Source: Methyloversatilis sp. (GTDB lineage: Bacteria; Pseudomonadota; Gammaproteobacteria; Burkholderiales; Rhodocyclaceae). Taken from it: 64,000 nucleotides of DNA. Numbering within the stretch: the stretch's first letter is position 1; every line of letters starts with the position of its first letter. Under the pieces are notes generated by a model. That model saw only the letters and a program-made list of their open reading frames with translations. It did no database searches and had not been told where the DNA came from. Location of the stretch: NCBI GenBank assembly GCA_016791045.1, contig JAEUNO010000019.1, positions 201,532 to 265,531 on the forward strand, written 5' to 3'. Made by a program: the position numbers and the translations under genes. Positions 27,042 through 32,705 of the stretch are shown one piece after another.

Positions 27042-27935
27042 ATGCGCATCGGCATTGATCTGGGTGGAACAAAGACCGAATTGATCGCGCTGGACGGCAG
27101 CGGCACCGCGTGCCTGCGCCGGCGCGAGCCGACGCCGTCCGGCGACTACGCCGCGACAGTCGCCCTGATCGCCCGGCTGGTACGCGACGCCGAAGACCGG
27201 CTGGGCGTGCCCGCCACGGTGGGCATCGGCACCCCGGGTTCGCGGTCACCGCTGACCGGGCGCATGCGCAACGCCAATTCCACCTGCCTGAACGGCCAGC
27301 CCTTGCAGCAGGACGTCGAAGCCGCGCTCGGCCGCGCGGTGCGCATGGCCAATGACGCCAATTGCTTCGCGCTGTCCGAAGCGGTGGACGGCGCGGGGCG
27401 GGCGGCACCGGTGGTGTTCGGCGTCATCCTGGGCACCGGTGTCGGCGGCGGCATCGTCGTCGATGGCCGGGTGCTGGAAGGCGCCAATGGCGTGGCCGGA
27501 GAGTGGGGTCACAATCCGATGCCCGCGGGGCCGGATACCGAAGGCAGTGCGCCGCCGCCGTGCTACTGCGGTCGCGCCGGCTGCATCGAAACCTGGCTGT
27601 CCGGTCCGGCACTGGCGGCCGATCACCGTCGGGTGACCGGCGAGCCGCTGGCACCGGAGCAGATCGTCACGCGCGCCGCCGCCGGTGATGCCGCCTGCGC
27701 AGCCACGCTGGCGCGCTACGAAATCCGGCTGGCGCGCGCACTGGCCGGGGTGATCAACCTGCTCGACCCGCAGGTGATCGTGCTCGGCGGCGGGCTGTCC
27801 GCGTTGCCGGGTCTGTATGAGCGGGTGCCGCAGCACTGGATGCCGCATGTCTTTTCCGACCTGATCACGACCCGGCTGTGCCCGCCGGTGCATGGCGGTT
27901 CATCCGGCGTGCGCGGTGCCGCGTGGCTCTGGTAG
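27042..27935 (+). CDS. ROK family sugar kinase (fructokinase-like)
   Basis: 297 residues with AGGAGG 4 nt before the ATG. It has the ATP-binding signature [16 protein letters not shown], the catalytic region [13 protein letters not shown] with its Asp, and [21 protein letters not shown]. The ROK zinc motif is visible as the substrate-site His/Glu in EWGHNP and the Cys cluster [15 protein letters not shown]. This set fits the Mak-type fructokinases. It phosphorylates a hexose with ATP in the cytoplasm; the exact sugar is inferred. Confidence 0.87.
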
Positions 27936-28042
27936 CCCATGCGGATTTTTTTCGGAGTGCGGTAAGGTTCGGCCCGCCGCAGGGTCTACTGCCGTGCAAA
28001 CCACATGACCGGTTTGATTTTTCCACCCTCAGGAGATCGCAC

Positions 28043-28309
28043 ATGAACAAGTCCGCCGCCCTTTCTGCCGCCCTCGCATCCGTGTTCGCCCTCGGCATCG
28101 TGACCAGCCCCGTTGTCGCGGCTGCGGAAGGCAAGGAGAAGTGCTATGGCGTGGCCAAGAAGGGCGCCAATGACTGCGCATCCGCCAATGGCTCGCACAG
28201 CTGCGCCGGTCAGGCCAAGGCCGACAATGACCCGAACGAATGGGTGTTCGTCGCCACCGGCACCTGCGAAAAGATGGGCGGCAAGACCGCAGCGCCGAAG
28301 AAGGGCTGA
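28043..28309 (+). CDS. bufA1: Bufferin-type RiPP precursor (DUF2282, BufA1)
   Basis: 88 residues; AGGAG precedes the ATG. An N-terminal signal peptide ([20 protein letters not shown]) is followed by a short core with four cysteines: EKCYG, NDCAS, HSCAG and GTCEK. DUF2282 proteins encoded next to DUF692 enzymes are reported to be bufferins, exported copper-chelating peptides whose central cysteines become thiooxazole rings while the outer two stay as thiols or a disulphide. It lies first in the operon, followed by a strong hairpin and then the modifying genes. Copper as ligand is inferred from the family. Confidence 0.88.
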
Positions 28310-28316
28310 TGCCCCG

Positions 28317-28342
28317 GGGATGCAGCCGGACGGCTGCATCCC
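28317..28342 (+). terminator. Intercistronic hairpin between bufA1 and bufB
   Basis: GGGATGCAGCC (28317-28327) and GGCTGCATCCC (28332-28342) form a perfect 11-bp stem with a GGAC loop. There is no T-run, so full termination is unlikely. It probably protects the bufA1 message end or partly attenuates transcription, giving more precursor than enzyme, as is common in RiPP operons. Confidence 0.7.
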
Positions 28343-28357
28343 TGTCCCGAGATTCCC

Positions 28358-29212
28358 ATGAGCCCGCATCCTGTCTCGCCGACCGGCATCGGTCTGCGCC
28401 AGCCGCACTACGCCCGCGTACTGGAAGAACGACCGCGCATCGGCTTCGTCGAAGTGCACAGCGAAAACTTCTTTCATGACGGTGGCGCCGCATTGCGCAC
28501 ACTGGAACGCGCCCGCGAATGCTATCCGGTCAGCCTGCACGGCGTCGGTCTGGCACTCGCGTCGGTCGACGCGCGCCATGACGCCCATGTCGAACGGCTG
28601 GCGAAACTGGTCGAGCGCATCGAACCGGATTTCGTGTCCGAGCACCTGTGCTGGGGTGCGGTCGATGGCATCCACTTCAACGATCTGCTGCCCTTCCCTT
28701 ACAGCAGCGAAGCACTTGCGCTGGTCGCCGCGCGCGTGAATGCGCTGCAGGACCGCCTGCGCCGCCCGGTCCTGATCGAAAACCTGTCGGCCTACGTGCA
28801 GTTCCGCGACGCGCGGATGAGCGAAGCCGATTTTCTCGCCGATCTGGTCTGCCTGACCGGTTGCGGACTGTTGCTGGACCTGAACAATCTGTACGTGAAT
28901 GCCCGCAATTTCGGCACCAACCCGATGGATGCGCTCGAACGGCTGCCGATGCACGCGGTACGGGAGATCCATCTGGCCGGTCACGCGGTGACCGGATACG
29001 GCCTGATCGACACCCATGGCAGCGCGGTATGCGACGACGTATGGGCGCTGCTCGCCGCCGTGCGTCGACGGGGTGTCGGCGCACCGGCGCTGATCGAATG
29101 GGATACCGATCTGCCGGAACTCGACATCCTGCTGGCCGAGGCGGCCCGGGCCGATCGCATCGGCGCCGACGCAGGCACATTGGATGGAGACCGCCGTGTC
29201 TGCGCTGCTTGA
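28358..29212 (+). CDS. bufB: MNIO enzyme BufB (DUF692)
   Basis: 284 residues. Multinuclear non-heme iron oxidase of the MbnB/BufB family, which uses O2 to convert Cys side chains into heterocycles. A TIM-barrel with metal ligands is visible in order: FVEVHSENFF, SLHGVGLALAS, SEHLCWG, PVLIENLSAY, LLLDLNNLYVNA, EIHLAGH, DTHGSAV and LIEWD. The expected substrate is the DUF2282 peptide encoded 48 bp upstream. No strong Shine-Dalgarno is seen, which fits low expression. Its 3' end overlaps the bufC gene. Confidence 0.92.
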   Translation: MSPHPVSPTGIGLRQPHYARVLEERPRIGFVEVHSENFFHDGGAALRTLERARECYPVSLHGVGLALASVDARHDAHVERLAKLVERIEPDFVSEHLCWGAVDGIHFNDLLPFPYSSEALALVAARVNALQDRLRRPVLIENLSAYVQFRDARMSEADFLADLVCLTGCGLLLDLNNLYVNARNFGTNPMDALERLPMHAVREIHLAGHAVTGYGLIDTHGSAVCDDVWALLAAVRRRGVGAPALIEWDTDLPELDILLAEAARADRIGADAGTLDGDRRVCAA

Positions 29213-29996
29213 CGCCCAGCGGCGCTTTGCGCGTGCCTTGCGCAGCGCGCAGGGCGAACCGGCCATGCTGCCGCTGCTCACCGGCGACGCCGAACGCAAC
29301 CGCGGCCTGCTCGGCGTCTATCGCGGCAATGCGGTGGCCAACGCCAACGCCGCGCTGACGCTGGCCTACCCGGTGTGCCGGCAGATCACCGGAGACGACT
29401 ACTTCGATGCGCTGGTCCGCCGCTACTGGGCGCAGACGCCATCGACCGACGGCGACCTCAATCGCTACGGCCACAGCTTCGCCGACTTTCTCGACGGCTT
29501 CGAGCCGGTGCGCGCGCTGCCCTACCTGCCCGACGTGGCCCGACTTGAATGGTCGGTGCATGTCGCGACGACTGCGGCCGATACCGCGCCGCTGGGTGGT
29601 GAGGCCTTTGCCGGCCTCGCCCCCGATGCGCTGGCCGCGGCCCGCCTGCACATGACGCCCGGCTTCGCGCTGCTCGGCAGTGCATGGCCGATCGCCGACA
29701 TCTGGCTGCAGCATCAGCGGGACGCCGCCGGCGCATCGGGCGACGCCTTCGACATCGATCTCGAGCAGGCCCAGTACGCCGTCGTGTGGCGTGACGGGCT
29801 GCGCGTGCGGGTGGCGTCGCTGTCCGTCGGCGCCCACGCATTCTGGGCCGCCATCGCGCTGGTGGGTGCCAGCTTCGGCGACGCCTGGGCCGGCGCCGCC
29901 GGGACCGAACAGGATTTCAACCTCGCAGCCACCATCGAACAGGCCATTGCTTGCGGCTGGCTGCACCACATCGAAACCAGGGGACATGAACAATGA
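29184..29996 (+). CDS. bufC: BufC (DUF2063) partner protein
   Basis: 270 residues. The N-terminal DUF2063 domain is visible (LLDAQRRFARALRSAQGE, NRGLLGVYRGNAVANANAAL, AYPVCRQITGDDYFDALVRR and HSFADFLDGF). The C-terminal part is a second alpha/beta domain. In MbnC/BufC pairs this protein binds the precursor leader and presents the core to the MNIO. The ATG at 29184 overlaps bufB by 29 bp; GTG 29196 would shorten it by four residues. The stop forms ATGA with the DoxX gene. Confidence 0.88.
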   Translation: METAVSALLDAQRRFARALRSAQGEPAMLPLLTGDAERNRGLLGVYRGNAVANANAALTLAYPVCRQITGDDYFDALVRRYWAQTPSTDGDLNRYGHSFADFLDGFEPVRALPYLPDVARLEWSVHVATTAADTAPLGGEAFAGLAPDALAAARLHMTPGFALLGSAWPIADIWLQHQRDAAGASGDAFDIDLEQAQYAVVWRDGLRVRVASLSVGAHAFWAAIALVGASFGDAWAGAAGTEQDFNLAATIEQAIACGWLHHIETRGHEQ

Positions 29997-30451
29997 ACGC
30001 CGTCACTCGCGCATATGACCTCGGCGCGCCCCTCGCGCGCCTCGCCGACCAGGTGCAGCCGCTGCTGCTGCTCGCCCTGCGCCTGTACATCGCCTGGGTG
30101 TTCATGAAGGCCGGTCTGACCAAGATCGAGGACTGGGACACCACGCTTTTCCTGTTCACCGAAGAATACAAGGTGCCGCTGCTGCCGCCGGCCATCGCGG
30201 CCTTCATGGGTACGGCCGGCGAAATCGTGCTGCCACCGCTGCTCGCCATCGGCCTGGCCGGGCGTTTTGCCGCACTCGGCCTGTTCGTCGTGAACATCAT
30301 GGCGGTCGTGTCCTACCCGGCCCTGTGGGAATTCGAGTGCCCGGCGGCCGTGGAGGCGCACCTGTGGTGGGGCGTCGGGCTGCTGGGGCTGGTCGCGTTC
30401 GGGCCCGGCGCGCTGTCGATCGATCGGCTGCTGGGCCGGCGCCGCGACTGA
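29993..30451 (+). CDS. DoxX family membrane protein
   Basis: 152 residues, four predicted TM helices (LLLLALRLYIAWVFMKAGLT, AAFMGTAGEIVLPPLLAIGL and others). The acidic/aromatic DoxX segment KIEDWDTTLFLFTEEYKVP is present. DoxX proteins are small quinone- or thiol-linked membrane proteins and are frequent last genes of bufferin operons. The ATGA overlap with bufC shows tight coupling. Its biochemical task in the pathway is not established. Confidence 0.85.
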   Translation: MNAVTRAYDLGAPLARLADQVQPLLLLALRLYIAWVFMKAGLTKIEDWDTTLFLFTEEYKVPLLPPAIAAFMGTAGEIVLPPLLAIGLAGRFAALGLFVVNIMAVVSYPALWEFECPAAVEAHLWWGVGLLGLVAFGPGALSIDRLLGRRRD

Positions 30452-31083: not shown

Positions 31084-31131
31084 GTCCCGGGCGTGAAACG
31101 ACAGACCGACGGTACGACCGGCAGCGGTGCG

Positions 31132-32223
31132 TCACACCGGCAGCGTCGGTTCGCTGCCCCCGCGCTGCAGGATGACGCCGCAGCCGCGGGTTTCGTGCAG
31201 GTCCAGCCGCTCGAGCGACGGGATCAGCGGCGTCGCCAGCGTCATGATGCGGCGTGCCAGGCTGGCGGTATCCGCGTCCCGGCCATCCTCATCCATCAGT
31301 TCATGCAGCGGCGCGTGATCGAGCCGCTCGAACAGCGGTGCGAACTGCGCCTTCACGCCGCCGAAATCGACCGTCCAGCCCATGACCGGATCGAGCGGGG
31401 CCGCCAGATGAAGGCGCAGGGTGAAGGTGTGGCCGTGAATGCGCCGGCGCGGGTCGCCGTCGGGCGCGCGCTTGAGCCGCACCGCGCTGTCGAGCGTGAA
31501 TTCCTTCCACACGCGGTGCTGCCGGCCGTCGAACTGCGCGCCGCAGCTGGCGGTTTCGTAGACGGTGACCCAGCACAGGCCGGGCAGCAAAGGCTTCAGT
31601 TGCTGCCAGATCCAGGCCGCGATGTTTTCGCTGGTCGGGTTGTCGAGCCCGGCGATGTCGTTCAGGCAGGCCAGATGCAGTTGTGCGTGCAGCGGCGCCC
31701 ACAGGACATCGATCCGTTCCGGGTCGACCGCGGCATCGGGCGCCGCCTTCGCGTGCAGCAGCACCTCGAAGCCGTGGCCGTGCATGCGGCCGCACTTGTG
31801 GCCGGGGGCCACGCGCGGCAGCTGGTGCGCCGACTGGAACACATAGCGGCGCCACACGTAAGCGTCGTCATGCCGGTCCAGCTGCACGCCGGCGTGGCGG
31901 GTGCTGCGCACGCCGACCGCGTGCACGTCGGGCAGGTCGAGCTGAGCGCGCAGCCAGCGTGCGAGATCTTCGTCGCCGGGCCGGGTGACGGTGTCGTTGA
32001 GCAGCTGGTAGTCGAGCGGTGCGAGCGCGGTACGCAGCCGAGCCGTCAGCGCATCGACCTCGCCGCCGGCGACACCGCCCCAGCCCTCGGGCAGCGCGGC
32101 GCGCACGCTGCCGGTGAAGCGGTGGCCGTGCAGCGCATGCGCGCGGTGGGTGGTCGGCAGGTGTTCGAGGCGGCGCGCGGCTTCGAAGTCCGCGGCGGCA
32201 ACATGGAGCAGGATGTCTTTCAT
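31132..32223 (-). CDS. Triple 6-carboxytetrahydropterin synthase-like (QueD) fusion
   Basis: 363 residues, made of three QueD/PTPS-like domains, whereas E. coli QueD is 121 residues. Domain 1 (5-118) keeps HGH (32,34) but has Arg for the first zinc His, no Cys, and no Glu. Domain 2 (124-232) keeps the full zinc set H133, H148, H150, catalytic C144 (HKCGRMHGH) and E223, but the Asp-His pair is lost (QLHLACLND). Domain 3 (237-355) has H263, H265, the Asp-His pair D302-H303 (ERLDHAPLHEL) and E344, but no Cys and Val248 for the first His. A composite active site between domains is plausible. Substrate: dihydroneopterin triphosphate by analogy. Confidence 0.82.
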   Translation of the reverse strand: MKDILLHVAAADFEAARRLEHLPTTHRAHALHGHRFTGSVRAALPEGWGGVAGGEVDALTARLRTALAPLDYQLLNDTVTRPGDEDLARWLRAQLDLPDVHAVGVRSTRHAGVQLDRHDDAYVWRRYVFQSAHQLPRVAPGHKCGRMHGHGFEVLLHAKAAPDAAVDPERIDVLWAPLHAQLHLACLNDIAGLDNPTSENIAAWIWQQLKPLLPGLCWVTVYETASCGAQFDGRQHRVWKEFTLDSAVRLKRAPDGDPRRRIHGHTFTLRLHLAAPLDPVMGWTVDFGGVKAQFAPLFERLDHAPLHELMDEDGRDADTASLARRIMTLATPLIPSLERLDLHETRGCGVILQRGGSEPTLPV

Positions 32224-32318
32224 GATCGGGGTCGGGTCGCGCGGTTGCGGCAGCGCCGCAGTGTGCCTGAGTGCGCAGTACTATCAGTATCGATCGAATT
32301 GCAGAAGGAGCACACCTC

Positions 32319-32705
32319 ATGTCCATCAGTCTGCTCGGCGCGGTGAAGGCCGTGCCCTGGGGCGACGTCATCGCGGCAGCCCCGAGCGTGGTGCAGGGCG
32401 CCAATGCGTTGTGGGACCGCGTCGCGAAGAAGCGGCCGAAGGGCGAGCCGGCGGACGCACCGGCGACTGCACCGGCCGGCGCGCCGGCCGAGGTACGGCT
32501 GGCCGCGCTCGAACAGGTGGTGACCGAACTGCAGAAGGAGGCGCTTGCCTCGTCGCAGCTGATCCGCTCGCTGGCCGAACAGAATGTACAGCTGGTGCGC
32601 GAGATCGAGGTGCTGCGCCTGCGCTCGCGCGTCATGCTGGCCGCCGCCGTGGTGTTCAGCGTGGCACTGGCGGCCAGCCTGTATTTCGCGCTGGCGGCAC
32701 GCTGA
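32319..32705 (+). CDS. Coiled-coil, tail-anchored hypothetical protein
   Basis: 128 residues; AGAAGGAG lies 8 nt before the ATG. Order: amphipathic N-terminus (MSISLLGAVKAVPWGDVIAA), a Pro/Ala/Lys-rich linker, a coiled coil (RLAALEQVVTELQKEALASS to LVREIEVLRLR) and one C-terminal TM helix (VMLAAAVVFSVALAASLYFA). This order suggests a membrane-tethered scaffold facing the cytoplasm. No family is recognised. Confidence 0.68.
   Translation: MSISLLGAVKAVPWGDVIAAAPSVVQGANALWDRVAKKRPKGEPADAPATAPAGAPAEVRLAALEQVVTELQKEALASSQLIRSLAEQNVQLVREIEVLRLRSRVMLAAAVVFSVALAASLYFALAAR

Follow-up and report, generated by a model that had tools for sequence, protein, structure and literature searches.

The locus raises the question of what a single chain of three QueD-like domains, among which the active-site residues are divided, might do, and of how it could form a working site. 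The open reading frame with three fused QueD-like domains that had been pointed out in a preliminary description of the window (the whole stretch of 64,000 nucleotides that was analysed) was found exactly at 31132-32223, and its product matches the PTPS family in three stretches (Pfam PF01242, 151.2 bits against a cut-off of 22.4, with an E-value of 1.5e-44 for the whole protein). The gene, called the triple below, and its parts are the following:

31132..32223, minus strand: three-domain PTPS/QueD gene, stop codon included, 363 aa with an ATG start
31870..32223, minus strand: domain 1 (aa 1-118), a degenerate domain that retains HGH 32-34 and D71
32122-32130, minus strand: HGH of domain 1 (aa 32-34), kept in 98/98 triples
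31525..31869, minus strand: domain 2 (aa 119-233), carries the zinc triad, the Cys and the Glu, with His-Leu where its Asp-His pair would be
31825..31827, minus strand: codon of H133, first zinc His, 98/98 triples
31792..31794, minus strand: codon of C144, catalytic Cys, 98/98 triples, codon read in the DNA
31774..31782, minus strand: codons of H148-G149-H150, second and third zinc His, 98/98 triples
31555..31557, minus strand: codon of E223, 98/98 triples
31135..31524, minus strand: domain 3 (aa 234-363), with an invariant Asp-His pair, without Cys and without the first zinc His
31315..31320, minus strand: codons of D302-H303, Asp-His pair of the catalytic triad, 98/98 triples, codons read in the DNA

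The residues were placed by alignment with the QueD proteins of E. coli and P. aeruginosa and with relatives: residues 16, 27, 31, 33 and 110 of E. coli QueD correspond, by a hand count from the alignment, to H133, C144, H148, H150 and E223 of domain 2, and its Asp-His pair 70-71 aligns with D302-H303. We assume the catalytic and zinc roles assigned to these E. coli residues, and take E223 to be the glutamate that binds the pterin. The division of residues that had been proposed earlier is borne out by this alignment, with the zinc triad and the cysteine in domain 2, the Asp-His pair and a glutamate (E344) in domain 3, and domain 1 reduced to HGH and one aspartate, its first zinc histidine, cysteine and glutamate being replaced by arginine, alanine and serine; to this we can add that domain 2 keeps its glutamate as well. 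On the QueD equivalog model of NCBI (TIGR03367), the whole chain scores 120.8 bits against a cut-off of 89.25, summed over three stretches, and domains 1, 2 and 3 taken singly reach 29.2, 53.8 and 46.6 bits, all below that cut-off; 26 of the 26 triples scanned are matched by this model, with E-values up to 0.001. An antisense open frame of 417 aa (31093-32346, plus strand) spans the entire gene and was taken as a shadow frame of high-GC DNA.

Using two peptide patterns, one holding H133 and the other H148 and H150, we fetched 80 loci, the best 80 of 372 related stretches, which together with the window and three more sequences gave 84 close triples, near-copies included. A family-model search in a survey of the order added 14 further triples, 35-59% identical to the window protein (tblastn), and the counts over the resulting 98 triples are counts of sequences, many of them close kin. 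H133, C144, H148, H150, E223, D302 and H303 are each present in 84/84 close and 14/14 further triples; because the search patterns contain H133 or H148 and H150, the invariance of these three is in part a product of selection, a bias that does not touch C144, E223, D302 and H303, which are absent from the patterns. The Asp-His pair reads DH in domain 3 of all 98 triples, in domain 2 of 29 and in domain 1 of 20. Domain 2 has lost its own pair in 69 triples, that of the window (His-Leu) among them, and has the aspartate in none of the 14 further ones. At this place domain 1 mostly keeps the aspartate, and the histidine is replaced by tyrosine or leucine in 78/98; its equivalents of the first zinc histidine and of the glutamate are found in no triple, and its cysteine survives in three and is lost in 95. 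Domain 3 has the equivalents of the first zinc histidine and of the cysteine in 0/98, has lost the first histidine of its HGH in 11 of the 14 further triples, and has a glutamate at the place of E344 in 71/84 close and 8/14 further triples. The HGH of domain 1 is invariant (98/98), although the rest of the site of this domain is gone.

The signature of QueD is Cys-x3-His-Gly-His, and domain 2 carries it together with the zinc triad in every triple; the Asp-His pair of domain 3 and the glutamate of domain 2 would complete the QueD residue set in all 98. To judge from the alignments, the set of residues common to all triples is the zinc ligands, cysteine and glutamate of domain 2 plus the Asp-His pair of domain 3, and the recurrence of this pattern down to 35% identity is more than chance and indicates a gene that is not limited to the genome of the window.

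No match to queC or queE was found in the 64,000 nucleotides of the window, as the preliminary description had observed of queuosine genes, and it had gone on to suggest a new pterin or a non-pterin substrate. This absence is local, since the genome has both queC (contig C29) and queE outside the window, and the suggestion of a new substrate is not supported by the relatives, which lie in operons with queE and often queC, are mostly the sole PTPS found in their genome and so point to the QueD of the queuosine pathway. Of the best 80 among the 372 related stretches, 72 have queE downstream in the same orientation (its match begins within 150 nt in 71 of these), and 30 have queC upstream (29 of them within 150 nt). 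The eight loci without queE comprise five of Methyloversatilis type (L037-L040, L059), two whose contig ends at the triple gene or just past it (L114 and L063), and L095. In the roughly 3 kb fetched around each of the 14 further triples, queE was found in 13 cases and queC in 11.

A census of PTPS proteins (PF01242) covered 30 carriers of the triple, 25 of them outside Methyloversatilis; 22 of these 25, including G082 with two triples, have no PTPS match beyond a triple, and additional PTPS proteins occur in G069, G073 and G086. In G086, a Solimonas carrier, a frame of 292 aa (L195, contig C12, 40024-40767) shows two weak PTPS stretches, the first without HGH. Across 150 sampled genomes of the order of the window, 21 were picked by hand as carriers on the strength of at least two matches in one long frame or of fetched DNA; G117, with two matches, one of them listed in a frame of 128 aa, was left out. 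By match counts the triple is the only PTPS in 19 of these 21, among the matches listed, and the two carriers with another PTPS are the window's own genome and G051; for G107, G146, G157, G163, G164, G172, G173, G180 and G209 the counts are likewise those among the matches listed, with one or two low matches outside. All carriers but G173 (20/21) have a QueC match, as do 144 of all 150 genomes, so that its presence in carriers says little and shows only that the pathway is common. Twenty-four of the 150 genomes are without any PTPS match, and in 16 of the 20 such genomes that were listed there is a match to QueC; in these, either the QueD step was missed or is replaced, or the preQ0 genes are put to another use. 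The status of sole PTPS is consequently no proof by itself that queuosine depends on the triple and, this argument being weakened, the operon context is the stronger evidence for the triple as QueD.

In the genus of the window the situation is different from that of the operons: of 13 Methyloversatilis genomes, 7 carry the triple, which is sited there away from the que genes. As to a separate queD elsewhere in the genome, which the preliminary description had proposed to look for, a single-domain QueD-like gene does adjoin queE in all 13 genomes, but with serine in place of the catalytic cysteine (SxxxHGH):

L005:5126-5500 (G000 contig C8, about 41.1 kb): Ser-type QueD-like gene, found also at L019-L022, L025, L026, L031, L032, L034-L036 and L121

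In five of the genomes (G001, G004, G005, G006 and G010) no PTPS other than this protein was matched; it may be a functional QueD of Ser type or else reflect an odd loss. With the triple in 7 of the 13 genomes and another QueD-like protein at queE in every one, the triple seems not to be required for the pathway in Methyloversatilis, and this arrangement, together with its distance from the que genes, makes its role there less certain. It is conceivable, if rather doubtful, that the triple of this genus has left queuosine synthesis for another pterin and that the Ser-type protein serves as QueD. The presence of the latter at queE throughout the genus, and alone in five genomes, would fit such a change of function, as would the lack of any queC or queE match near the window triple or the five Methyloversatilis-type loci. 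Against it, the seven site residues are intact in the Methyloversatilis copies, dN/dS is low (0.15-0.23 over ten pairs of five copies), and the same protein sits in the que operons of other genera. A version of this explanation that involves tetrahydromethanopterin fails on the distribution of MCH. The reason for considering such a link was that the closest relatives with a name belong to Methyloversatilis, a genus of methylotrophs; the link was rejected, MCH being found in 13/13 genomes of the genus whether or not they have a triple and giving no match in the carriers G041, G051 and G054. The low dN/dS and the retention of all seven residues suggest that the Methyloversatilis triple is likely an active enzyme, and we infer that it may still act as a QueD.

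How one chain could provide the site is suggested by the oligomers of related enzymes. The PTPS of Plasmodium is described in PMC7546909 as a dimer of trimers whose zinc sites lie between neighbouring monomers, an inter-subunit arrangement like the one considered here, in a homo-oligomer that makes other products, and the reference list of the same article includes Burgisser 1995, whose title names an inter-subunit catalytic triad in PTPS. AlphaFold gave a model of the window protein with a pLDDT of 88.2 and a pTM of 0.87, weak at 278-286, and one of a far relative (37% identical) with 88.9 and 0.87; the top structure matches of the window protein are P. aeruginosa 2oba and E. coli QueD (4ntk).

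The proposal of a pseudo-trimer with a single composite site, made in the preliminary description, agrees with the residue pattern, which is conserved and under purifying selection; the ring itself and the contact of C144 with D302-H303 we infer. As domain 2 is without its own Asp-His pair in the window protein and in others (69/98), the pattern is best read as a single composite site in each chain, probably shared by domains 2 and 3. We hold it to be quite probable that the protein is a QueD of queuosine synthesis in which the homotrimer has been rebuilt as a one-chain pseudo-trimer with specialised domains. The usual QueD homotrimer would have become one chain by fusion of its three subunits, which afterwards specialised; its T-fold domains would close into a ring that resembles the ordinary trimer and in which one of three possible inter-subunit sites is retained. 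The cysteine would come from one domain and its Asp-His partner from the following one, domain 2 supplying the zinc through H133, H148 and H150, Cys144 as base or nucleophile and Glu223 to hold the pterin, and domain 3 supplying Asp302-His303. The loss of the cysteine from domains 1 and 3 would free the Asp-His pairs of domains 2 and 1, which matches the decay observed. Domain 1 would now have a mainly structural part, as would the zinc side of domain 3, and a pseudo-hexamer may arise by head-to-head association of two chains. From dihydroneopterin triphosphate, the product of FolE, such a chain would make 6-carboxy-tetrahydropterin, which QueE and QueC would carry on to preQ0 and then to queuosine in tRNA. 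Counted against a QueD pseudo-trimer were the failure of any lone domain to pass the TIGR03367 cut-off, the DH pair in domain 2 of 29/98 triples, the cysteine in domain 1 of 3/98, and the 3/25 carriers with an extra PTPS.

An unlikely elaboration is an asymmetric pseudo-trimer with one catalytic site in three in which the HGH pocket of domain 1 would be re-used, either for a regulatory ligand or metal or for docking of QueE or QueC. Less probable still is a site that lies entirely within domain 2, or that borrows the aspartate of domain 1, with domain 3 as scaffolding. The 29 triples with a full Asp-His pair in domain 2 would need no pair from domain 3, and the aspartate of domain 1 is there in most; the loss of the domain 2 pair from the other 69, including the window protein, nevertheless leads us to reject a site wholly in domain 2 for most triples, domain 1 has tyrosine or leucine for the histidine in 78, and domain 3 alone has the pair in all.

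In a domain tree of 26 of the 98 triples and 9 of 38 single-domain loci (two of the nine being identical), domains 1, 2 and 3 each form one clade, with supports of 100/99, 100/100 and 100/99, and the tree is most simply explained by one ancient triplication after which the chain was inherited whole, a reading limited by the small number of columns, the long branches and the scarcity of single-domain rows. The whole chain is under purifying selection. A decaying pseudoenzyme or a functionless tandem duplication, to which the loss of most site residues from domain 1 and the dN/dS of this domain (0.25-0.63 in the same ten Methyloversatilis pairs, the highest of the three) might point, is highly improbable in view of one architecture in 98 triples, one clade per domain, seven invariant residues, selection on the whole chain and the que operons.

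Compared with QueD/PTPS-I (E. coli 4ntk, P. aeruginosa 2oba), the triple has the same fold, the zinc triad, the cysteine four residues before HGH, the Asp-His pair and the glutamate, and its relatives share the que operon context. Known QueD proteins have one domain per chain and identical sites, whereas the triple has three unequal domains and probably one site, and for this reason we file it as a variant of QueD and not as an ordinary member. Mammalian 6-pyruvoyl-tetrahydropterin synthase is likewise built as a dimer of trimers, its zinc sites lying between monomers. More than one T-fold domain per chain is also found in uricase and other tandem T-fold enzymes, QueF being one with two domains, but these differ from the triple in having two domains, another chemistry and no close kinship. 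In a Foldseek comparison with whole-chain T-fold enzymes, uricases aligned over about 300-340 columns in the majority of rows, with an rmsd of roughly 14-16 A, which is no real superposition. No description of a three-domain QueD was found in the literature searched, in which subscription papers were slightly covered.

The triple is thus most likely a new architectural variant of QueD, with an ordinary job and an unusual build. If so, it would be a natural single-chain trimer that has discarded two of three identical sites and shares the third between two domains. Each of its domains could be altered separately, which is impossible in a homotrimer, and one could thereby ask directly why active sites form between subunits and what advantage fusion brings. 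Automatic annotation as QueD can mask a distinct architecture, here in 21/150 genomes of the order, with the triple as sole PTPS in 19/21 among the matches listed.

Two further observations were made. A third PTPS protein, with HGA for HGH, lies at L006:6370-6774 (G000 contig C2), in a row of genes whose products, judged by eye, resemble an alcohol dehydrogenase, a glycosyltransferase, a methyltransferase, a RibD-like reductase, a RibA-like GTP cyclohydrolase II and a creatininase-like protein. Adjoining the triple in the window, at 27878-30451, are a DUF2282 protein, a RiPP enzyme of MbnB/TglH/ChrH type, a DUF2063 protein and a DoxX protein in a row, which appear to have the make-up of a metal-binding RiPP cluster that we take to be bufferin-like.
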